In this document: piece after piece, positions 13,044 to 31,180 of the stretch
How the letters are laid out: each line of letters opens with the position of its first letter
Numbering within the stretch: position 1 is the stretch's first letter
Source: Candidatus Omnitrophota bacterium
Lineage (GTDB): Bacteria; Omnitrophota; Gorgyraeia; Gygaellales; Profunditerraquicolaceae
Assembly: GCA_003598025.1 (NCBI GenBank)
Contig: QZKH01000003.1
Coordinates: 1 to 42,047, forward strand
Reading direction: 5' to 3'
Length of the DNA stretch: 42,047 bases
Program-made: the position numbers and the translations under genes
Notes under the pieces: generated by a model
Told to the model about the DNA's origin: nothing
Seen by the model: only the letters and a program-made list of their open reading frames with translations
Databases searched by the model: none

Positions 13044-13394
13044 ATGAGAGATCTTCTTTATAAAAATCTGACTTCAAACGACAGAAAAAGAAGGATAATA
13101 GCAAGTTCAGAAATTGTTGATAAACAAGGTGTGCATAGCGTTATCCGCAGGCATTTTATTTGCCTTTTAAGGGAAGTAGAAGGAAGCCCAGTTGATAGAC
13201 CGAAGCCGTATTTATATGTATTAAAGGAGAGGAATACTAACAATAGAAGAGAGAAATTTTTTTGCAAGATCAAGGGGAGCATATATGCTGTTTCTGGCGG
13301 CAAGCTATATCTGATCCTTTTTATGCATACTCTTTGTATCAGCCTTAATTCAATAAGCAAGACGGCAGTTATGGGAGATAGCGATAAGTGTTGA
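13044..13394 (+). CDS. Small uncharacterised protein, 116 residues
   Basis: Not recognised by a named domain. ATG 13044 has a good AGAGGG site 5 bp upstream and its own promoter and structured leader, which supports a real gene. The protein is basic at the N-terminus (LTSNDRKRRIIASSEIVD) and has an alternating hydrophobic, probably beta-rich centre. A hydrophobic stretch (KLYLILFMHTLCISL) near residues 92-106 could be a buried strand or a weak membrane segment. There is no signal peptide. Confidence 0.6.
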   Translation: MRDLLYKNLTSNDRKRRIIASSEIVDKQGVHSVIRRHFICLLREVEGSPVDRPKPYLYVLKERNTNNRREKFFCKIKGSIYAVSGGKLYLILFMHTLCISLNSISKTAVMGDSDKC

Positions 13395-13447: not shown

Positions 13448-13560
13448 AAAGTTTATAAAAGTAGTTATTATCCGGTTCTTCTCGATTACTGGAGATAATT
13501 GAGAAAGCCACGGAATAGATTCAAGCCGGATTGACTAAGGGTCAATCCGGCTTTTTCTTT
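13448..13560 (+). ncRNA. Orphan small RNA, about 110 nt
   Basis: Bounded by a near-consensus promoter and a strong terminator, with no open frame. The first hairpin runs from about 13474 to 13509: GGTT/AGCC plus TTCTCGATTA/TAATTGAGAA, with a 7-nt loop. ATCCGG at 13470-13475 could alternatively pair with CCGGAT in the terminator arm, so a switching leader is possible. The next gene has its own promoter downstream of the terminator, favouring a free-standing sRNA. No known family was recognised. Confidence 0.55.
13523..13560 (+). terminator. Intrinsic terminator
   Basis: A perfect 13-bp stem (13523-13535 with 13541-13553, arm AAGCCGGATTGAC) has loop TAAGG and is followed by a T-rich tract to 13560. 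It ends the small RNA and insulates the surface-protein promoter downstream. Confidence 0.9.
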
Positions 13561-13584: not shown

Positions 13585-13613
13585 TTGACATTTGCTATTA
13601 TCAGCGATATACT
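13585..13613 (+). promoter_or_regulatory. Sigma-70-type promoter for the surface-fibre cassette
   Basis: TTGACA (13585-13590) and TATACT (13608-13613) are 17 bp apart. Transcription would start near 13620, directly before the G-rich ribosome site GGGGGG (13625-13631) of the TTG-started gene. This is one of the strongest promoters in the window. Confidence 0.8.
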
Positions 13614-13637
13614 ACCCTAAAAAAGGGGGGGTGTGAT

Positions 13638-15038
13638 TTGGAAAACACGGTAAGCAAAAAAGCATTATCCATATTTATTCTGTGTATTCTTTTATCCATA
13701 TTTACCCTGCCGGTTTTTTTATTAGCTGATACTTTTGATTTAAGCCTTTCGTTGGTTGAAGGCGGCACAAGATTAGAGCTTAATCAGGCAAATCAGTATA
13801 AAGGTGTTAAGCTCCAGGTAAATTCCGATGTCTCTACCAGGTATGAAATAATCCAGAGGATACAACAGCAATTTGTCAATAGGGATAACCCCGGTGTTAT
13901 TTTACGCGATAATCTGGTAGTCAGAGGATTACGCGGAACAAACAGGTTCGGCACGTTTCGTATTCCTACCAATGATATAGCAGTCAGGGATAATGAATTA
14001 ATATATACCTCCAGTTCTAGCGGCCAGGCAGATACCTTGACGCTGGTATATGGCTTAAAGGACTTAGACAGTATACAGCCCGGTTTTTACCAGGGGCAGA
14101 TCAGTTTTACTTTAAGGCCAATCGGGTCAACCCGGCAGGAAGTCACAAAATATTTGTATATTTACATAAGTATTAGTGAAACAGGCACCGTTAGCCAGAA
14201 AATAGAGATAATTACACCTACCGGTTCAAAAAGAATAAATCTGAATCCTTCCAAAGACCAGATGATAGCGGTAGATATTTTGGTTAAAATTGACAGCGAT
14301 TTTAACGAACCTTTCAGCATTGTCCAGTATTTAGCGCGGCCTTTAGAATCTAAAACCGGTGATAGAATAGACAGCAATATCATAAATTTCAGGGTGGCTG
14401 AAGCTAAAAAAGGCGTCGGAGCCGCAAAGACCGATCTTTCAAATAATCCTCAGATAATTTATACGTCTTCGCCTACAGGGCAAGCTGACAGGGAATTTAT
14501 AATCAGTTATTATATAAAGGATTTATCTGACGAGAAATCTGGGACCTATAATTCAAGGCTGCAGTTTTATTTAAGAAAAAAGGGCATTGATAAGAAAATA
14601 GATGATTTGGACCTGGCAGTAGAGAATGAAAAGATATTTGAGCTTAGCCTTGAACCTCAGGATCCAAAAGGGAGGATTGAATTTTCAAATTTGAAGCCAA
14701 AATCTTTGCCGCAACAGAGCGAGGTAATTGTTGACATCAAAAGTAATACCGGAAAGAAATACCAGGTAAGCCAGAAGGTCTTTTCTGACTTGACCAATAA
14801 GGAGGGTAATGTTATCAGCCCTGAGTATTTTACTTTAAAGACGGAGAATATTGATCTTGAAGGAGACCTGAAGTTTCTCAGTAAGGCAAATGTGCAGAAA
14901 GGCGAAACGGTGCTTTACGTATCAGATGCTAAAGGCTCTGCCGGAAGTTTTAAGGTAATATATGAACTTACCTGCCCTGCGGATATCGTTGCCGGTGATT
15001 ATTCTACGCGGATTACTTATTCTTTAGTCGAACTTTGA
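13638..15038 (+). CDS. Exported protein with three tandem beta-domains
   Basis: A 466-residue secreted protein. The signal peptide is residues 1-30, with probable cleavage after FLLA. Three related domains follow (about 32-176, 183-316, 331-466). Each ends in a shared pattern: (I/L)Y(T/V)S..G.A, then a Y..KDL-like turn, G.Y, and a closing beta strand. A second shared motif (I/V)xQ near QRIQQQF, QYLARPL and QKVFSDL starts the middle of each unit. An Ig-like beta-sandwich is inferred. It has its own strong promoter and a TTG start, and heads the cassette. It may be a fibre tip, adhesin or stalk subunit. Confidence 0.75.
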   Translation: MENTVSKKALSIFILCILLSIFTLPVFLLADTFDLSLSLVEGGTRLELNQANQYKGVKLQVNSDVSTRYEIIQRIQQQFVNRDNPGVILRDNLVVRGLRGTNRFGTFRIPTNDIAVRDNELIYTSSSSGQADTLTLVYGLKDLDSIQPGFYQGQISFTLRPIGSTRQEVTKYLYIYISISETGTVSQKIEIITPTGSKRINLNPSKDQMIAVDILVKIDSDFNEPFSIVQYLARPLESKTGDRIDSNIINFRVAEAKKGVGAAKTDLSNNPQIIYTSSPTGQADREFIISYYIKDLSDEKSGTYNSRLQFYLRKKGIDKKIDDLDLAVENEKIFELSLEPQDPKGRIEFSNLKPKSLPQQSEVIVDIKSNTGKKYQVSQKVFSDLTNKEGNVISPEYFTLKTENIDLEGDLKFLSKANVQKGETVLYVSDAKGSAGSFKVIYELTCPADIVAGDYSTRITYSLVEL

Positions 15039-15100
15039 AAAGGAGGATTCTTATGGTAATTGATTTGAATAAAAATAAATTTAAGAAAGGAGGTGTTAAA

Positions 15101-15796
15101 ATGAGAAAAACGATTGGTATTTTGTTAATTCTGGCGATAGCAATAGTTCTTCCTCAACTTGCTTATGCTGATATATCTTTGACTGCCAGCGCAACTGTAA
15201 CCAGCGGTACTGCTTTAGGCGCGCATGCTTTGTTAAGATGTGTTGGTTATAGCTACAACCCTTCGGGGGATCCGTTTGCCCAGTGCACTAGCTTAGGTAC
15301 CAGCACCAGCTTGAATTTCGGGACATTGAGCACTAGGTTACGTAATTCCAGCGGCCAAGATATCGGCGGTGCGGGTTGCTTCTACGGTGAGAATTTCTAT
15401 ATTGTTTACCTGTATCCTGATGCTTGGGGTGGAAAAGGTTATGAGCTTAAGCAGAGCGCAGCCACATTCTCTCCTGCTATTCAGAATTCAGTTGTCCGCA
15501 CTCCGGTCTATTCTGAAAGTGATATGTATTCTGGACAAACAACCGGACAGGGTGCTTTGACTGCAACTGAAGAAAGCAATAATCCGCAGCTTACTCCCAG
15601 CGTTTCAGCATTGGCAAAGAATGCGGGTTTGATCCTGAAGGCTAAGAGAGCAAGGATAATACGCGCTGAATATGGGATACCGCCTTTCCCGGGAACTGGT
15701 GATTCGCGTCCAACTGGATGGGAAGCTGTATCTTTAGAGACTGCTGCAGGAACGTATTCAGGCACTGTAACTCTTACTATGACTGAGTGGCTATAA
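15101..15796 (+). CDS. Pilin-like exported protein (spore coat U-like candidate)
   Basis: A 231-residue secreted protein. The signal peptide ends LAYA-D. The mature part opens ISLTASATVTSGTAL, contains LNFGTL and YPDAWGGKGYEL, and ends with a GTYSGTVTLTMTEW strand, reminiscent of spore coat U / chaperone-usher pilins. Similarity is by eye only. AAAGGAGGT (15085-15093) sits 7 bp before ATG 15101. An in-frame ATG at 15053 also has AAAGGAGGA (15039-15047) and would add 16 charged residues before the signal peptide. It is probably the abundant subunit of the cassette. Confidence 0.7.
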   Translation: MRKTIGILLILAIAIVLPQLAYADISLTASATVTSGTALGAHALLRCVGYSYNPSGDPFAQCTSLGTSTSLNFGTLSTRLRNSSGQDIGGAGCFYGENFYIVYLYPDAWGGKGYELKQSAATFSPAIQNSVVRTPVYSESDMYSGQTTGQGALTATEESNNPQLTPSVSALAKNAGLILKAKRARIIRAEYGIPPFPGTGDSRPTGWEAVSLETAAGTYSGTVTLTMTEWL

Positions 15797-15932
15797 TAAG
15801 CACTCTACGTTTTTTTAGTTGAGTAGGAAGTATTGTTAAGGTTCTATAGGTTACATATTTGGGGTGGTAAGGGGAAGGGTCTACCATTGTCATCCCAAAG
15901 GCTTTATCTTATAAATTAGGAAGGAGTTTTTA

Positions 15933-16820
15933 TTGCCTAGATTCTTAATATTCGTTGTATCTATATCTTTACTGTTATGTAGTAATATAAATGTATCTTT
16001 GGCAGCAGACCTGTCTTTCAGGTTGGAACAGTCCAAGATCAAATTAAGTATTCCCGATGGCGCATCAAAATCCGGAGAGATAAAGATCTATAGCCAGTCA
16101 GGCAGCCCGATAAGCCTTAAAGTTTATTTGGAAGATTGGGTATATACCGATATTAATGACGGCTCAAAAGATTTCTATCCTCCCGGAAGCACCCCTTTTT
16201 CTTGCGCGAAATGGATCAATTACAGCCCATCAGAGCTGTTAATCCCTCCTTACGGTATAGGTAAGGTGAATTACACCGTAAATGTCCCTAAGGATGCTGA
16301 GGGCGGCCATTATGCAGTCATGTTTTTTGAGAGCGCTCCCATTCCTCCTGAATTCGGAGGCCCGGAGCAGGGCATTAAATCCGGGGTCGGCCTTGCAATA
16401 AGATTAGGTTCCCTGATCTATATCGAGGTAAAAGATAAATTCAAACGGTCTGTTGAATTTAATAATTTCCAAGTTTCTAATGATATCAAGAATAATTACC
16501 TTTTGATTTCTGCTGATTTAAAAAACACCGGGAACACCGATATCACCACCGCTTCTTCTTACCATATAATTGATTTTAAAGGGGTAGTGCATGCCAGAGG
16601 AGAATTTAATAATGTTTTTATGTTCCCCGGTGATACCGGTATGATAGAAGCTTCCTGGAAGAAGCCTCTTAGTGAAGGTAAATATGATTTAGTCATCACT
16701 ACCGATTTAGGTAAATCTCAGGAAGAGGGCGGGGTAAGCAGGGGGCCTGTTATAGTTAAGGAGACCGAGCTTTATTTAGGACAGGGAGGAGAGGTATTAA
16801 AAGTTGGCCAGCTGCGATAA
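15933..16820 (+). CDS. Exported Ig-like protein, candidate periplasmic chaperone
   Basis: A 295-residue protein with signal peptide (cleavage near SLAA-D). Two beta-rich halves are visible. The first (about 27-150) has features of PapD-like or DUF916-like domains: a G-E-I strand, VYLEDW, a P-rich W-containing loop, then PPYGIGKVNYTVNVP and GGHYAVMFFE. The second (about 165-280) resembles another Ig-like domain (SADLKNTGNTDITT). A fibre-subunit chaperone role is inferred from this and the neighbours. TTG start at 15933 with AGGAAGGAG upstream. A C-terminal tail rather than a membrane anchor is seen. Confidence 0.65.
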   Translation: MPRFLIFVVSISLLLCSNINVSLAADLSFRLEQSKIKLSIPDGASKSGEIKIYSQSGSPISLKVYLEDWVYTDINDGSKDFYPPGSTPFSCAKWINYSPSELLIPPYGIGKVNYTVNVPKDAEGGHYAVMFFESAPIPPEFGGPEQGIKSGVGLAIRLGSLIYIEVKDKFKRSVEFNNFQVSNDIKNNYLLISADLKNTGNTDITTASSYHIIDFKGVVHARGEFNNVFMFPGDTGMIEASWKKPLSEGKYDLVITTDLGKSQEEGGVSRGPVIVKETELYLGQGGEVLKVGQLR

Positions 16821-16859
16821 TATTCTTTCGCTGTCATCTTTCTAGGATTAAATAAACAT

Positions 16860-16886
16860 AAAAGGGATTGAAGGCTGATCCCTTTT
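16860..16886 (+). terminator. Hairpin between chaperone and barrel genes
   Basis: AAAAGGGAT (16860-16868) pairs with ATCCCTTTT (16878-16886) around a 9-nt loop. The downstream tract is only ATTGTTAT, so termination may be partial. It could lower expression of the barrel gene relative to the subunits upstream, as is common in fibre operons. Confidence 0.45.
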
Positions 16887-16904
16887 ATTGTTATATAAGG
16901 TATT

Positions 16905-19700
16905 ATGAAAAATCACCTGACTAAGAAAATAATTATATTTTACATTATTCTTTTCTCGGCATTCTTAATGCCCGTAGCCTCTTTTGCATATTCGCAGATG
17001 CCTGAGTTTCTTTGCGAATTAGGAGTTAATTTTTATAACCAGGGAAGGTATTCCGAGGCTATGCATGAATTCAAGAAGGCCCTGATCATCGACCCTACTT
17101 ATGAGCCCGCCTTAAGATATATCCAGATGATCGAGCAGATGAATATCAAGGATGTAGAATATATCCCGCCAAGCTATGAAAGCCTTGCTACTTCTCATTC
17201 CGGTTCTATAAGAGAGATCCTTGATTTGGTAGAGCTGCAGAGAGATATGATAGAATCTATTGAGTCGGTCAGCAAAAAGACAGAGCCGCTAAGTCCTCAA
17301 ACCTTAGATAGCGTTTTAGAGGAAAGGGTGCTTCCTCCTAAAGTAATTTATCTTGATAATGATTTCAGCAATATCCGCCAGCCTGTTGAGATTATACAGG
17401 GCAATAAAGTTATTATATACGGAAATAATATACAAAGGTTCCTGGTTACCGAACCTGAAATAATTGATGTAGAAAGGGTCAATGCTGACCAGATCATTGT
17501 GACAGGAAAAGGTATCGGGCATACTTATCTGCATATTTGGGATAGTAATGGCAGGTGGACCACGGAGTTCATCGGAGGTTTTCCTCAGCCAAAAGGCGCT
17601 TCTTATGAAGAGATGTTACGCAAAGAAGAAGAAAGCGCAAGAAATTTTAAGCTGCGTTATACTTTAGACTGGTCATCATTTGAATCAGGCAGAAGATTAG
17701 ATAATTTAAACCGTGGTTCTTATTCTTGGGTACATGGCCTTGGTTTTTACGGACCCACGCCATATGGTGATTTTGATTCTTCTGCGGATGTTCGCAGCCT
17801 TAAAAAGAATAGCGATTTAAGCTATGCCACAATCGGTTTAACTAATGGGCAATTCGGCCAATTTAAGGGCTTTAGCATCAGGTTGCTTGATTATATGCCA
17901 TATTTTTCTAATTTAGCGTTTTCAGGGTCTACCCTCAGAGGAGGCTTCTTCAGCTCTCCTGCATTTAACAATAAGTTGAGTTATAGTATTTTCTGGGGCA
18001 GGGAAGGCGGAGGCAGGTACGGTAATCTCTCTCCCTCTTTAACCAAGACAAAGCACTCGTTTATAGACGGCGTTTATGTTGATTATTCTCCGAGCAAAAG
18101 GCAGAATTATAAAGTTACTGCCGTGCACGGCTGGGGTAGGGACAGGGAAGATTATCTTAACAGATATAATTATGATTTATCCAGCACCTGGAATTTTGAT
18201 AAGTGGAATCTTAACTATGAAATAGCCAATGATACAGAAAGATTTGCGCATTTATTAAAATGGAGATTCAGCCAGCAGAAGATAAGCGTTTCGGCAGAAG
18301 CAAGGAATGTCGATGAACGGTATAATAGCATAACCGAAACCGGATGGCACCAGGGTGAGATCGGAGGCCTATTAAATTTAAGCTATTCGCCGACCGATAA
18401 GCTTTCAATGTCATCTTCCCTTGATGTTTACCGGGACAGGCTTTTCCCCTCAGAGGACAATAACAACAGATGGAATGAAGACTTCAGCTGGGGCGCAAAC
18501 TATCAGCTTGATGACGATTCTGCGCTTAATTTAAATTATGATTTGCAAAATCAGCTTGGCCGGCTTTCGCAATACCGCTATCAAAGTTCGGGAGTGGGCT
18601 ATACTAACAAAATCCATTTTATAAAAGATATATCTACATATATGAATTATTATCATCAGGATAATAAGAATTATTCTGCGCCCAGCTCGGATTATATCAA
18701 CGACAGGTTCTTCGCAGGCATGAGATTCAATGTGGTTGGTGAGCTTTATTATTATTTGAATAAGGAAATAAATTTATTACAGGAAAAGTATTATGGTACC
18801 GAAGCCCATCCTCATGCGCTTGAAATGGGGCTGGACTGGTCTAAGCAGATAGGAGCCACTCCTTTTTATGGAATTTTCCGTTTTACTTATAGGGATGAAG
18901 AGGATACTGTATCGAACTTAGGGTTTTTATCAGGAGAGGATTATATAGAAGGCTATAGCGAGTTGAGTTTCAGGCCCGGTGACGGCGGTAAGGAGCTTTA
19001 TGGTTCATGCCGCGTACGTAACGTTTGGGCTGATAAGGATGGTATCGAGAAACGTATAGAAGCTGATTTTAATGCCGGCATGCGTTATTTGTGGGATACT
19101 GGCAGGCGCTGGGATTCTGTGGGCAGTGTCGATGGCTATGTGTTCAAGGATTATAATTCCGATGGCCTGAGGCAGAGGGATGAGCCTCCTGTTGAGGGGG
19201 TAAAAGTATGGGTGGGTAAAGACCGTACGGAAACAACGGATATATTCGGTTATTTTAAGTTTACCGGCGTCAAAGGCAGAAAAGTATTCATCAATTTGGA
19301 TACGACTACAATACAGCCGGGTTTTGTAATAACTGTTCCCGTTACTCAGGACGTCCCGGTAATCCATCATGGAGTAAGCCGTGTGTATTTCGGGATAGTT
19401 TCCAGGTCAGAAATCAGCGGGATTGTATTTGAAGATTCTAATGGCAATGGCCTTTTTGATGTAAAAGAGAAAGGAGTAGAAGGGGTTGTCATAACGCTGG
19501 AAGATGGCAAGAAATCTGTTACCGATAATATCGGAAGGTATTCTTTCCCTAATGCTTCAGCAGGAGAGCATATAGTGGAACTCCATTTGGATAGCCTTCC
19601 GGTCCAATATTTGCCTAAAACATCATTATCTCAGAAGCTATACCTTTTTGAAGGGGTAACTTATCATTATGATATACCGCTGGATAGAATAGAAGGATAG
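16905..19700 (+). CDS. Outer-membrane barrel protein with TPR, secretin-N and SdrD-like domains; usher candidate
   Basis: A 931-residue exported protein. Signal peptide residues 1-28; one TPR-like repeat (about 32-75, GRYSEAMHEFKKALIIDP); a T2SS/T3SS pil_N-like domain (about 145-225, with VEIIQGNKVIIYG and DQIIVTGKGIGHTYLHIWD). Residues 240-730 alternate polar and aromatic residues with repeated tyrosines, as in an outer-membrane beta-barrel. Two C-terminal SdrD-like Ig domains follow at about 739-830 and 835-931, each opening with a DxNxDG/DxNGNG calcium-type loop. A single polypeptide combining these parts is unusual. By position it may export the upstream subunits. Function is inferred. 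Confidence 0.65.
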   Translation: MKNHLTKKIIIFYIILFSAFLMPVASFAYSQMPEFLCELGVNFYNQGRYSEAMHEFKKALIIDPTYEPALRYIQMIEQMNIKDVEYIPPSYESLATSHSGSIREILDLVELQRDMIESIESVSKKTEPLSPQTLDSVLEERVLPPKVIYLDNDFSNIRQPVEIIQGNKVIIYGNNIQRFLVTEPEIIDVERVNADQIIVTGKGIGHTYLHIWDSNGRWTTEFIGGFPQPKGASYEEMLRKEEESARNFKLRYTLDWSSFESGRRLDNLNRGSYSWVHGLGFYGPTPYGDFDSSADVRSLKKNSDLSYATIGLTNGQFGQFKGFSIRLLDYMPYFSNLAFSGSTLRGGFFSSPAFNNKLSYSIFWGREGGGRYGNLSPSLTKTKHSFIDGVYVDYSPSKRQNYKVTAVHGWGRDREDYLNRYNYDLSSTWNFDKWNLNYEIANDTERFAHLLKWRFSQQKISVSAEARNVDERYNSITETGWHQGEIGGLLNLSYSPTDKLSMSSSLDVYRDRLFPSEDNNNRWNEDFSWGANYQLDDDSALNLNYDLQNQLGRLSQYRYQSSGVGYTNKIHFIKDISTYMNYYHQDNKNYSAPSSDYINDRFFAGMRFNVVGELYYYLNKEINLLQEKYYGTEAHPHALEMGLDWSKQIGATPFYGIFRFTYRDEEDTVSNLGFLSGEDYIEGYSELSFRPGDGGKELYGSCRVRNVWADKDGIEKRIEADFNAGMRYLWDTGRRWDSVGSVDGYVFKDYNSDGLRQRDEPPVEGVKVWVGKDRTETTDIFGYFKFTGVKGRKVFINLDTTTIQPGFVITVPVTQDVPVIHHGVSRVYFGIVSRSEISGIVFEDSNGNGLFDVKEKGVEGVVITLEDGKKSVTDNIGRYSFPNASAGEHIVELHLDSLPVQYLPKTSLSQKLYLFEGVTYHYDIPLDRIEG

Positions 19701-19708
19701 CCGAATGT

Positions 19709-20008
19709 TTATCTGTTGTATACTGTTTTTAAGCTCACCATAGCAGCATTATCTGCCATAATAAGCCTCTCGGATACTTGTTGTATAATCTCAGGCTTCA
19801 ATTCAGCTTTAACTTCTTTTACATCCGTTTTTACATCCGCATGCTGACTGGGTGTTTGGTTGTTTGTTGAGGTGTTGTCAGCCGGCGCATTAACGCCCGG
19901 GATTGCCGGTATGGTGCAAGAAACTGAAAATGATATTGCCTCGGCAGATGCTTGAGCAATAAAAAAAGCAAGTAATAATATGGCAGTTAAGAGTGTTATT
20001 TTTTTCAT
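19709..20008 (-). CDS. Small exported protein, 99 residues
   Basis: Not recognised. A clear signal peptide (MKKITLLTAILLLAFF...ASA-E) is followed by a short hydrophobic strand (ISFSVSCTIPAIPGV). A Thr/Asn/Gln-rich linker (residues 44-56) and a charged helical C-terminus come next. AAGGAGG lies 6 bp before ATG 20008. Its start overlaps the stop of the gene upstream (ATGA). It is the second gene of the c-di-GMP riboswitch operon and converges on the barrel gene with 8 bp between stops. A surface or periplasmic role is inferred. Confidence 0.75.
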   Translation of the reverse strand: MKKITLLTAILLLAFFIAQASAEAISFSVSCTIPAIPGVNAPADNTSTNNQTPSQHADVKTDVKEVKAELKPEIIQQVSERLIMADNAAMVSLKTVYNR

Positions 20009-20298
20009 TTCGCGCCTCCTTGATTTGTTCTCCCGTGGCAGGTGAGGACTGACCCCTCTTGCTTCTTGAAAGCATTCAAAATTCTATTTTCAAAATCTTT
20101 TTCAGATTTTATCCCCTGGCCGCTTATGTCCAGATGCTCTACTAAGTCTACCAGCCAGGAAATAAGCCTGGCCCTGGACAGCTTAGCACCCGTAGAGAAG
20201 AGAGCATCTTTGCCGACTTTATCAAGGAAATCTACTTCCTGACGGTTCAAGAATGTTACGACTCTCTGAATTTTTTCTTCCTGGCTCATCGTTTTCAT
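20005..20298 (-). CDS. Small cytoplasmic protein, possible ribbon-helix-helix regulator
   Basis: A 97-residue protein with no signal peptide. Residues about 17-52 read as a short strand, then a helix, then LSRARLISWLVDLVE, reminiscent of ribbon-helix-helix DNA-binding folds. This is a by-eye suggestion only. GAGGTGG precedes ATG 20298; an open frame continues upstream into the terminator but lacks a ribosome site. It is the first gene after the c-di-GMP riboswitch and is translationally coupled to the exported protein. Confidence 0.65.
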   Translation of the reverse strand: MKTMSQEEKIQRVVTFLNRQEVDFLDKVGKDALFSTGAKLSRARLISWLVDLVEHLDISGQGIKSEKDFENRILNAFKKQEGSVLTCHGRTNQGGAK

Positions 20299-20308
20299 TA
20301 TCCACCTC

Positions 20309-20349
20309 AAAAAAATAACCCTGGTTTCTGTTACAGGCAAACCAGGGTT
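20309..20349 (-). terminator. Second tandem intrinsic terminator of the riboswitch leader
   Basis: On the - strand an 11-bp stem (20339-20349 with 20317-20327, arm AACCCTGGTTT) is followed by ATTTTTTT. It lies between the first terminator and the gene at 20298, so a polymerase that passes the first meets another. Confidence 0.85.
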
Positions 20350-20573: not shown

Positions 20574-23500
20574 TTATGTTAAAAATGCTTCTATTTTGTC
20601 AATTTTATTGGAGCGGATTTGAGAAGCAAAAGGAGAGGTTATAATATTCGAGCGGATTTCAACGATTTTTTTCCCGTTAGAGTAAAGGATGATACTTTTT
20701 ACTTGCGCGCCTCCTTTACCAAAAGTATCTTTTTTATTTTTATTATAGTAAGTGATATTTGTTTTGCTTAGGAAATTGAAAACATAATAACCGTTCTTAT
20801 CAAAAAGCCAGCCAGGTAGTATGGGCTCAAGGCGCAGGTTTAAATTCTTATTATTGTCTAAGAAGAAAGGCTCCTTACCGATACTCATTATTAACCAAAT
20901 ATTGATAAGCTCAACTGTGGAACCTGAAAGCCTGGCGACAAAGCCATTCCCATGCAATCTTTTATCCGGAAAGGCGCTGCTTACGATGAATGAAGAGTTT
21001 TCCAGTACGCTTCTGCCATATCGTTCCGGGTCCTGAAAGGGTATAAATACATTCTTAAAATCCCGGTAGAATTCATCATAAAAACCATTTTTCATCATTT
21101 CAAGCAGATATTTATATTCCATATGCAGCCAAATAGACTCATTTTCAAGCCAACCGGGATTAAAAACCCTGCATCTGCCGATTTCTTCAGGCATAGATTC
21201 AAGGGATGCAGTTACTTTATACATCTTTAGTTTTTTGTCAAACAACCCGCTTTTTTTAACTGACTCGATAAGAGCTAAAGCATCGTTTCTATTCTCGGCT
21301 AATCTTAGTGCGTGCATCTGGCCTTCAAGAAACAAAGGTAACGGCTTCTGTGTGAATTTTATTGGTTTAAAGCCGTTATCTTTTAAAGGGGTAAAATTAA
21401 CAACTTCGTTTATAAAGTAGGAATTTATTAATTTTGATTTCTTATCTTTTGCTTTTAAACAAGCATCATTGATTTTCTTCAGGAAGTTTTCGATTATCTC
21501 CAGGATCTTTTGTCTCTCGATCTCCACTTCTTTCCCGCTGAATCCGAGCTTAGTAAGCTCTCTGTAACTTTCTTTGGCAGTAGTTGCCATATCCCAATAG
21601 CTATAATCCTTGTCAGCTGAGTTATCTTGGAAGTAAGCAGATATGAGGCCGTTTATCGTTGAAATAAATTCCCAGATTTCTTGAGTCAGGGCCAGTCTGT
21701 CTACAGAGCTCTTATTAAGTACGGTTATTATAAATAAAGCCAATCTTTTTACTTCAAAAGTTTCGCATGAAGATGAGCCAAACAGCGCAGGCAGGCCGTT
21801 CAGCGAGTCGAACCAATTCGGTTTATCAGCTTCCATTTCGATGCCTACGCCGAAAGGATCAAGAGAGGATGTTTTGTTCACTAAGAGGCATAATAATTTA
21901 TTTATGAGTGTAGTCTTGTGGATCTCTCCTTTACCATAGTTGTTTCTTGCTAGATTCGGAAATTCGCCCCTTTTACGTATGAGTTCCTTTTTGTATGTAT
22001 CTGCAGCTATAGAATGCAGCTGTTTGCAAAGCCCGTTTCTTAATATGTATTTTTCGGACCTGGGCTTGACGACTTCAGTATTATCAAAATATGTAAATAT
22101 TCTTTTCTTAAAAATCAACTCTTCGAGGTTTTCAGGGAACACGCCGAGATAGTTTTCTAAAAGGTCAAGATTATAATGCCAATGGTCTATCCAGAAACCT
22201 TCTCCGTGTTCGGCTTCCTGGAGTTTAGTACAGTAAGATAATAAATTAGCCAAGAATTCGTCGTAAGAGACTCTTAATTTGATATTATTCTCATGTAAAT
22301 ACAAAATTATATCTCCGGGAGAAAAATTTGAGCTTAATAATTGAAGTATCTGGCTGGTTTTATTGCTTTCGGTTATGTTTTGTAAATAAGATTTTAATCC
22401 GTCTTTAGAGTCAAGGCAGAAAACAGAGCCTTTTACTACCAGGGGATTGAAGCCGTCTGTTTGGATCAAATTCAAGAAAGTAGTAATATTTTCTTCTCCG
22501 ATACCCGGATAAAGCCAGCTGTCACACCTGCGGTTTTGATTTACATCTCTGTAATTACCGTTTCCTTGGGAAAAATATGTAGGATGCAAATGAAACCTGT
22601 TATAGTCCCTTTCAAGGTCGCCGTGCTTTCTTGAGTAGATATAAAAAAGCGAGTCAGTTTTCTTGGATTTAAATAACGCAGGGTACCCGCCGCGGAGGAT
22701 ATTATCAAGATATGTTTGTTTCACGTAGAGATTAAATTCCCTGGATGAACTTTTAGTGTTAACGTTGTCTTGCAGTTCATTTATTATCTTCTGGTTTTCT
22801 TCCTTTTTTGCCTCGAGATATCCGGGTTTTGTCATTCTGGATATGTTTGCGTTTAGGATATCCTTGCTGCGCATGTATCCAAAGACGCTATAGAAAGATT
22901 TTTCCTTGCCCCCGGCTAATTCGATTTTGGCCGTAAATAATGCTGAAGGAGTTTTACTGTATACTTCGTTATTATTTATTTTTTCTGGCTTATCATTTTT
23001 CAGGAATCCGGCAGGATAAGAAAAGTCGGTATTATCGTTGAAAATAACAGCCGGGTCTACGATTGTGTCTAAAAGAGTTGCTTTAGTTTTACTATTTTCA
23101 TAATGGAATGAAACGCAGAAATTACCTTCTTTTATATGAATTACCTCAGGCCTGTCTGTCGGATCTACTGTCAGCCTGTAAAAAGGAGCTTTGTTTTCAG
23201 TGTTTTCAGCCCTCATCCAGGCTTCAATCGTGCGGCCCAGCTTTTTCAGGAAAAAATTGTTCGTGCCATAAGGTATGATTTGGGGAAGGCCGTCTGCGAT
23301 GTGTAGCGATTGTTTTTTTCCGGTGGTGTTTCTGACTGTAATAATCCTGGCCAGTCCTGCAAAGCTATCTTGCGGAATGGTAAAATAATCGATCATTATA
23401 TGCAACCCAAGTGTTTTGTTGACTTCTTCGAGCCTTAAGCCGGAGCTTGATATAAGCATTTTATTTGAAAGATCAAAGCCTATATTTGCCGCACCGTTAT

Positions 23501-23813
23501 GGAAAGGTTCATAGAATACTGTTTTGCCGGACTTGCTGGTTTTTAAAAAAGTGCGAAACCCGCAGGATGAGACAAACTGCCAGCTTTTGTTGGCAGGGAA
23601 GAATTCAAGGATTGCGTTATCTTTGTCTTTAGTGCCGAAACTGCTTATGCATTGGCCCCTGTTTACATAAAAAACCCACATCGGGATGCCATACTTTCCG
23701 GCAATTCCGGGGAAGAAATTGGCAAAAGGACGCGAAAAGTTATAGTTCTCTATGACGAATTCGCCATTTTCGGTAAGTTGGTATTTTGGTTTTCTTGCGG
23801 TGTTTTTCTTCAT
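20574..23813 (-). CDS. Large GH94-like / cellobiose-phosphorylase-like enzyme
   Basis: A 1079-residue cytoplasmic protein without signal peptide. The N-terminal 330 residues look beta-rich. The centre has LERDYNRFHLHPTYFSQG, NYRDVNQNRRCDSW and GEGFWIDHWHYNLDLLENYL, and the C-terminal third resembles an alpha-helical toroid with a beta cap. These features fit large proteins usually annotated as cellobiose phosphorylase-related. The substrate cannot be named. GGAG lies 6 bp before ATG 23813. It is the only large gene on the - strand. Its 3' end leaves about 80 bp to the riboswitch promoter. Confidence 0.55.
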   Translation of the reverse strand: MKKNTARKPKYQLTENGEFVIENYNFSRPFANFFPGIAGKYGIPMWVFYVNRGQCISSFGTKDKDNAILEFFPANKSWQFVSSCGFRTFLKTSKSGKTVFYEPFHNGAANIGFDLSNKMLISSSGLRLEEVNKTLGLHIMIDYFTIPQDSFAGLARIITVRNTTGKKQSLHIADGLPQIIPYGTNNFFLKKLGRTIEAWMRAENTENKAPFYRLTVDPTDRPEVIHIKEGNFCVSFHYENSKTKATLLDTIVDPAVIFNDNTDFSYPAGFLKNDKPEKINNNEVYSKTPSALFTAKIELAGGKEKSFYSVFGYMRSKDILNANISRMTKPGYLEAKKEENQKIINELQDNVNTKSSSREFNLYVKQTYLDNILRGGYPALFKSKKTDSLFYIYSRKHGDLERDYNRFHLHPTYFSQGNGNYRDVNQNRRCDSWLYPGIGEENITTFLNLIQTDGFNPLVVKGSVFCLDSKDGLKSYLQNITESNKTSQILQLLSSNFSPGDIILYLHENNIKLRVSYDEFLANLLSYCTKLQEAEHGEGFWIDHWHYNLDLLENYLGVFPENLEELIFKKRIFTYFDNTEVVKPRSEKYILRNGLCKQLHSIAADTYKKELIRKRGEFPNLARNNYGKGEIHKTTLINKLLCLLVNKTSSLDPFGVGIEMEADKPNWFDSLNGLPALFGSSSCETFEVKRLALFIITVLNKSSVDRLALTQEIWEFISTINGLISAYFQDNSADKDYSYWDMATTAKESYRELTKLGFSGKEVEIERQKILEIIENFLKKINDACLKAKDKKSKLINSYFINEVVNFTPLKDNGFKPIKFTQKPLPLFLEGQMHALRLAENRNDALALIESVKKSGLFDKKLKMYKVTASLESMPEEIGRCRVFNPGWLENESIWLHMEYKYLLEMMKNGFYDEFYRDFKNVFIPFQDPERYGRSVLENSSFIVSSAFPDKRLHGNGFVARLSGSTVELINIWLIMSIGKEPFFLDNNKNLNLRLEPILPGWLFDKNGYYVFNFLSKTNITYYNKNKKDTFGKGGAQVKSIILYSNGKKIVEIRSNIITSPFASQIRSNKIDKIEAFLT

Positions 23814-30670: not shown

Positions 30671-31180
30671 ATGGCATTTAGTAATAAGAAGAAAATTGAA
30701 GAAAAAATATTAGATGTCGATGCCTCTATGCAAGGCAGCCTCACTTTTAAGGACCCGGTTAATTTGCGTATCAATGGCAGGTTTGAGGGCAACCTCGATG
30801 TAAGGGGAAGCTTAACTATCGGTCAGACAGCCGGCATAATCGGCGATATAATCGGGGATAATATTATCGTCGGAGGCAAAATTAAAGGCAGGATTACCGC
30901 CAGGGAAAGGCTTACGCTTTTGCCGACTGCAATGGTTGAAGGCGATGTTTTTCCGGCAAAATTAAATATTGCTGAAGGTGCGATACTTGAAGGCCGGTGC
31001 GCGATGCTGCATGATTTTCTTAATGCCGAAGAGCTGGCTAGGTATCTTGAGGTGGATTTAAACTCTATTATGGAATGGGCAAATTCCGGCAAGGTCCCGG
31101 CGCTTAAAGAAGGCGAAGGGTGGAAGTTTGAAAGAAAAGAAATTGATTCCTGGATAGCTTCCGGTAAGGTTGGCAGGTAA
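30671..31180 (+). CDS. Bactofilin fused to an excisionase-type HTH domain
   Basis: A 169-residue protein. Residues about 18-110 form a bactofilin repeat (SLTFKDPVNLRINGRFEGNL, then regular beta-helix turns with alternating G and I/V). Residues 113-166 form a helix-turn-helix of the HTH_17/excisionase type (FLNAEELARYLEV ... GWKFERKEIDSWIASGK). AAAGGAGGT sits 6 bp before ATG. Bactofilins polymerise at the membrane; fusion to a DNA-binding module is unusual and might link filament and DNA. Confidence 0.85.
   Translation: MAFSNKKKIEEKILDVDASMQGSLTFKDPVNLRINGRFEGNLDVRGSLTIGQTAGIIGDIIGDNIIVGGKIKGRITARERLTLLPTAMVEGDVFPAKLNIAEGAILEGRCAMLHDFLNAEELARYLEVDLNSIMEWANSGKVPALKEGEGWKFERKEIDSWIASGKVGR

Follow-up and report, generated by a model that had tools for sequence, protein, structure and literature searches.

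The gene cassette described here is likely (probability about 0.83) to specify a divergent fibre assembly machinery of the chaperone-usher type in Omnitrophota, a reading for which there is computational evidence only and in which export is inferred. The cassette lies in a 42,047-nt stretch of contig QZKH01000003.1 (the window, that is, the whole stretch of DNA analysed), from a genome of 1.69 Mb that is 96.6 % complete. Its gene order, the homologies of its products, the fold match of the large outer-membrane protein P4, and the similarity and cognate tracking between the small protein P5 and the pilin-like protein P2 are computed results.

The original prediction of four consecutive exported proteins held: P1 to P4 are exported-protein ORFs, all on the + strand and spanning 13638-19700, each with a signal-peptide-like N-terminal segment (by eye). 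A fifth gene, P5 (19709-20008), convergent with P4, had been missed. The features, in window coordinates, are as follows.

13523..13553, + strand: terminator-like hairpin, 14 pairs, T-rich tail
13585..13613, + strand: promoter-like site TTGACA-17-TATACT, 11/12 consensus matches; consensus match only
13638..15038, + strand: P1, 466 aa, exported
15101..15796, + strand: P2, 231 aa, exported, pilin-like
15170..15220, + strand: P2 mature N-terminal extension, residues 24-40; candidate donor strand
15933..16820, + strand: P3, 295 aa, exported, chaperone candidate
16858..16888, + strand: hairpin between P3 and P4, 13 pairs
16905..19700, + strand: P4, 931 aa, usher-like outer-membrane protein
17001..17102, + strand: TPR repeat of P4, residues 33-66; TPR_2, 2.6e-6
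17400..17555, + strand: pil_N domain of P4, residues 166-217; T2SS-T3SS_pil_N, 8.4e-10
17649..19097, + strand: P4 barrel, residues 249-731, about 26 strands in the model
19134..19394, + strand: first SdrD_B-like domain of P4, residues ~744-830; usher CTD1 position
19413..19622, + strand: second SdrD_B-like domain of P4, residues ~837-906; usher CTD2 position
19709..20008, - strand: P5, 99 aa, exported; convergent with P4
19877..19942, - strand: donor-strand-like segment of P5, mature N-terminus, EAISFSVSCTIPAIPGVNAPAD
20005..20340, - strand: P6, 111 aa, cytoplasmic; overlaps the P5 start

The hairpin at 13523-13553 marks the boundary between the upstream gene and the cassette. Directly 3' of it is the top-ranked promoter-like site of the region, and the P1-P4 ORFs start 25 bases past this site. 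The claim that one strong promoter is shared held only in part: the site is present, but our scan gave 25 promoter-like sites where shuffled sequence leads one to expect 20.6, which does not exceed chance, so that a single strong promoter is plausible and not shown. Terminator-like sites were likewise not above chance in the scan (8 against 7.4). The hairpin between P3 and P4 could possibly be an attenuator or an mRNA-stability element.

For the comparison of gene order, about 80 loci were fetched. The order P1-P2-P3-P4 is found in 17 of the 21 near loci, the remaining four being truncated by contig ends, and relatives in the same order are spread over the phylum, including distant families and another class, which argues that the arrangement is not due to chance. 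In the window, the cassette sits between a plsY-like gene and a gene for a 1079-aa protein, while at other genome sites (e.g. L061-L066) its neighbours are quite different, and it thus behaves as a unit. Other families of the same class keep the order, some with two P2 genes. In the other class (L112-L116), P1 is replaced ahead of P3-P4 by a series of one-domain pilin-like genes encoding ~160-200 aa; the P1 profile matches two of them. Additional P2-like proteins of ~490-510 aa occur at L110, L111 and L137; those at L110:10566-12095 and L111:10924-12390 are located 3' of P4, and the latter has a weak match to glycosyl hydrolase family 26 (3.2e-8). A tip adhesin with a carbohydrate-related domain is one possibility for these two proteins. 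By analogy, the arrangement at the distant loci resembles fimbrial operons. Of 128 genomes in the order, 44 gave strong P4 matches (cut-off >200 bits), as did 90 of the 384 genomes in the phylum sample (cut-off >300 bits); these related genomes are not independent of one another. The profile searches took in Omnitrophota genomes only, and confinement of the system to this phylum is not shown. A plasmid search returned staphylococcal SdrD_B domains only.

Weak P4 matches in many genomes proved to belong to a separate family (family B), which has only the TPR N-terminus in common with P4 and was excluded. Its members are large outer-membrane barrel proteins of ~930 aa, often at the same locus (L035:7498-10281, L045:13423-16206, L069:5665-8358 and many others), and where a genome lacks the cassette, they mostly occupy the site flanked by plsY and the 1079-aa gene. 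P6, with the pattern RVVTFLNRxEVDFLDKxGKDALFSxGxKxSRAK and no significant Pfam match, was seen at 15 loci with the cassette, but never at those having only family B; judged by eye, it may be a ribbon-helix-helix-like regulator.

Several neighbouring genes were also recorded. At 13044-13394 (+) lies a gene for a highly conserved 116-aa protein (MRDLLxKNLTSxDxxRRIIASSE...) without a Pfam match, which belongs with the locus and not with the cassette, being present with or without it. Most relatives conserve the 1079-aa protein (20574-23813, -) at this locus, and it has no Pfam match at 1e-5. Further away, at 30671-31180 (+), a Bactofilin domain is followed by a C-terminal helix-turn-helix (HTH_17); the two in one protein are an apparently unusual combination.

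By Pfam, P4 carries a TPR repeat, a pil_N domain and an SdrD_B match in two stretches (9.6e-18), and it has no Usher or TcfC match. An AlphaFold2 monomer model built from 21 aligned sequences (pLDDT 79.7, pTM 0.53) shows 26 long strands between residues 249 and 731. When this model was compared with the PDB using Foldseek, which returned 296 matches at E <= 0.001, ranks 1-13 were all FimD or PapC (E 5.7e-18 to 2.8e-9, the best with probability 1.00), and most of the usher alignments covered 750-850 columns (up to 847), extending past the barrel. Non-usher barrels (AlgE, porins and TonB receptors) follow after the ushers, from 1e-8. The TM-scores were low (0.26-0.31 by query), so we trust the ranking above the geometry, and, together with the pTM, they leave barrel closure and strand number uncertain. 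No insertion of ~80 residues between barrel strands that could represent a plug was seen, a provisional result given the pTM of 0.53. Sequence comparison of P4 with FimD and EcpC detected no similarity, and Pfam Usher (PF00577) matched none of the 127 genomes searched from the order, with a positive E. coli control. Distant relatives retain pil_N or SdrD_B, although the TPR is undetected in some, and at L113 and L118 pil_N lies directly at the N-terminus. The pil_N domain (plus TPR) takes the position of the usher N-domain and the two SdrD_B domains take the C-terminal positions; the usher layout of N-domain, barrel and two C-terminal domains would thus be filled in P4 by other modules.

P3, like P1 and P2, has no Pfam or NCBIfam match by itself, while among its 21 relatives Fn3_5 is weakly matched by 15 and WxLIP_PGBD (DUF916) by 4. 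The top PDB match of the P3 profile is the fimbrial chaperone EcpB (5dfk) with both versions of the alignment (2.1e-4 and 2.3e-4), and hhalign gives 92.4 % (5.2e-7) against EcpB, 29 % against EcpE and 1 %, that is, no similarity, against FimC. Arg157 of P3 is invariant (48/48) and aligns with EcpB Arg116. Pro99, kept in 43 of 48 sequences, aligns with EcpB Pro60, the superfamily-invariant proline (PMC4654587), and Lys35, at the position of PapD Arg8 (by eye), is K or R in 42 of 48. Arg89 in strand F1, common to archaic and alternative chaperones, binds the subunit C-terminus (PMC4654587); it is absent from P3, where HYA is aligned with YYR of EcpB. The P3 profile also matches the Enterococcus faecium WxL-interacting protein EfmWxLIP1 (3.4e-4) over most of its length, a possible relationship that cannot be dismissed. 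With the PapD_N model, no match was obtained in the 127 genomes searched from the order. We infer that P3 is related to chaperones but falls outside the branches described so far, an inference from sequence alone, its fold not having been modelled.

The two pilin-like proteins are related to each other. The three domains of P1 (residues ~31-172, 173-322 and 323-466) are mutually homologous (hhalign 98.7-99.5 %); the third reaches 87.5 % against P2, and the whole P1 profile 95.4 % (E 1.8e-8) against the P2 profile. P2 has 231 aa when read from an ATG with a strong Shine-Dalgarno sequence (an upstream TTG would make 253 aa), and in its AF2 monomer model (pLDDT 82.2) a disordered stretch precedes a beta-sandwich. 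To this stretch, residues 24-40, the model assigns no secondary structure and only low confidence, and in many homologues the extension shows the alternating hydrophobic pattern TxNVxATVP. P1 has no counterpart of it, as would be expected of a tip subunit, although that role is inferred. The P2 fold search gave no PDB match below E 0.01 (CfaB was 16th at 0.12), sequence comparison with EcpA and FimA found no similarity, and PDB searches with the P1 and P2 profiles gave signal-peptide or chance matches only.

These results bear out most of what had been proposed for the individual proteins: the modular composition of P4 (by Pfam and model) and its lack of classical usher domains, the three-domain P1, the pilin-like nature of P2 (by homology to P1, sandwich model and disordered extension) and the conserved gene order all held. 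The description of P3 as PapD/DUF916-like held in part, with EcpB as the best match, DUF916 in a few relatives and PapD_N in none of the 127 genomes. Of the 24-strand barrel with plug that had been envisaged, the usher fold was matched, but with 26 strands and, provisionally, without a plug. For the incomplete Ig fold suggested for P2, we have the sandwich model and no supporting PDB match at the threshold given above. The idea of a fibre-export system built from different modules is supported, with export still an inference.

P5 is a previously overlooked exported protein of the cassette whose N-terminus mirrors the P2 extension. It consists of a donor-strand-like N-terminus, an acidic linker and a conserved C-terminus (...VKTxYxR). 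An HMM detects P5 in 43 of the 56 loci with sequence past P4, several further cases being clear by eye. Of 127 genomes in the order, 39 encode P5, and every one of these belongs to the 44 in which P4 is strongly matched; in nearly all of the 39, it is intact and adjoins P4. P5 thus belongs to the cassette unit. At L123, a full-length 189-aa pilin-like gene (47-613 from the P4 end) occupies its place. Codon analysis of six close relatives gave a dN/dS of 0.21 over the mature protein, with ~0.08 in the strand segment, 0.33 in the linker and 0.18 in the C-terminus, showing that the N-terminal segment is under purifying selection.

The likeness between P5 and P2 is specific to the locus. At L064, the mature N-terminus of P5, GDSVTISMSCTIPSIPGVNAP, resembles the P2 extension of the same locus, AASQTVSVNATVPTMAGGLSV, and at L136 both have changed together (P2 SGAASATVPQVLEF, P5 SGTASCIMPQLLEI); lineages in which the two changed jointly are the clearest cases of cognate likeness. 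Some P5 proteins are found by the P2 profile (1e-3 to 1e-6), and in distant lineages the likeness runs on into the next VPxxxxL stretch of the pilin. Across 44 loci, the mean local alignment score between P2 and P5 (P5 cores delimited by hand for some loci) was 27.0 for cognates, 22.3 for all pairs and 17.2 (sd 0.55) for shuffled P5. This cognate excess was equalled in 0 of 20,000 permutations, in 1 of 20,000 when permuting inside near and far groups only, and in 0 of 20,000 for the 14 far loci alone, while the N-termini of P1, P3 and P4, treated in the same way, scored 13-16 with no cognate excess. The permutations only partly account for the tree. However, descent alone would not keep two genes that separated long ago, as P2 and P5 did, specific to their cognates, so that co-evolution or gene conversion is needed.

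In known chaperone-usher fibres, each new subunit inserts its N-terminal extension into the groove of the subunit before it, until addition of a special whole pilin, PapH or FimI, ends the fibre (PMC12122975). In the mechanism we propose, P3 would be the periplasmic chaperone and P4 the outer-membrane assembly platform, with the barrel as pore, TPR and pil_N recruiting subunits, and the two SdrD_B domains working like usher C-terminal domains. P2 would be the shaft subunit, joining via its N-terminal extension, and P1, with three pilin-like domains and no extension, the tip. P5, exported separately and bearing the extension only, would enter the groove still free on the last P2 and, leaving none unfilled, end the fibre, while its acidic linker and conserved C-terminus may hold it to P4 or to the cell. 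The set of parts would then comprise an acceptor only (P1, tip), a donor and acceptor (P2, shaft) and a donor only (P5, end). Donor-strand exchange, the surface fibre and its export, the tip, shaft and base roles and the P5 mechanism are all inferred, without experimental data, and that P5 is a stand-alone donor strand terminating or anchoring the fibre remains a tentative proposal, with the odds slightly against it.

The alternative chaperone-usher pathway (EcpA-E; CFA/I CfaA-E) shares with the cassette the neighbouring pilin, chaperone and usher genes, a chaperone to which P3 is closest (EcpB), and an usher, EcpC, whose C-terminal domain also shows CarboxypepD_reg similarity. In contrast, neither the TcfC plug domain nor CooC_C nor a MatB pilin occurs in the cassette, the Arg89 that archaic and alternative chaperones have in common (PMC4654587) is missing from P3, P4 contains the TPR, pil_N and two SdrD_B modules, and there is the additional protein P5. 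The classical pathway (type 1 and P pili) offers the best fold matches of P4 (FimD and PapC), a layout of N-domain, barrel and two C-terminal beta domains whose positions P4 fills with pil_N (plus TPR) and SdrD_B, and a basic pair, Lys35/Arg157 in P3 at PapD Arg8/Lys112 (by alignment, partly by eye). It differs in that Usher and PapD_N are absent from all 127 genomes, no plug is seen in the P4 model, FimC is not similar to P3, and the base subunit FimI/PapH comprises a complete pilin (PMC12122975), in contrast to P5, which corresponds to a strand only. WxL-interacting proteins (DUF916/DUF3324) resemble P3 through the EfmWxLIP1 match, but they form a Gram-positive, peptidoglycan-bound complex (PMC10599100) and have no outer-membrane barrel or pilin-like partner genes.

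Among the rival explanations, the one that survives best concerns P5 alone. It is possible that P5 belongs to the unit without being a donor strand, acting instead as a gate or plug of the P4 barrel or as a periplasmic assembly factor, with its likeness to P2 reflecting a common binding site on P3 or P4. The lack of a visible plug domain in P4, the adjacency of P5 to P4 and the conservation of its C-terminus are all compatible with this, and recognition of a common N-terminus by P3 or P4 would likewise yield cognate tracking. Against it, the likeness falls on the segment that is the donor strand in known pilins and, in distant lineages, extends into the VPxxxxL stretch. A second rival, which we consider unlikely, is that P4, instead of an usher, is an exporter of the TPR-barrel type or a large porin (in the manner of AlgE, PgaA or BcsC) and P1-P3 form some other periplasmic or surface scaffold, similar to a WxL cluster. 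Polysaccharide exporters also combine TPR and barrel, AlgE, porins and TonB receptors come next after ushers in the fold search, no plug is visible, and P3 has its EfmWxLIP1 (3.4e-4) and DUF916 (4/21) matches. However, the top usher is about nine orders of magnitude ahead of the top non-usher, with an alignment that passes beyond the barrel, the top match of P3 is a chaperone, pilin-like genes adjoin P3-P4 in both sampled classes, and the P2 extension is mirrored by P5. That P5 is a decaying pilin fragment, as its retention of only the pilin N-terminus and the full pilin-like gene in its place at L123 might suggest, is very unlikely given its intact state beside P4 in nearly all of the 39 genomes, the conservation of both its ends and the low dN/dS (0.21 overall, 0.08 in the strand).

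Under the chaperone-usher reading, a bolder interpretation is that the cassette represents a fourth chaperone-usher branch, with an usher in which a barrel without plug is combined with TPR, pil_N and SdrD_B domains, and a fibre base tethered and ended by P5 as a donor strand encoded on its own, without a pilin domain. We regard this as conceivable, though not yet the more probable view.

Standard models miss this system wholly, and surface fibres of an entire candidate phylum may therefore be unannotated. The main survey of Omnitrophota (PMC10066038) treats type-4a and Tad pili and large adhesins, and the word 'usher' is absent from its main text. The findings suggest that the usher plan may be achievable with other modules. 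As the ending of type 1 pili is still debated (PMC12122975), P5 would offer a simple and directly testable way to end a donor-strand polymer.
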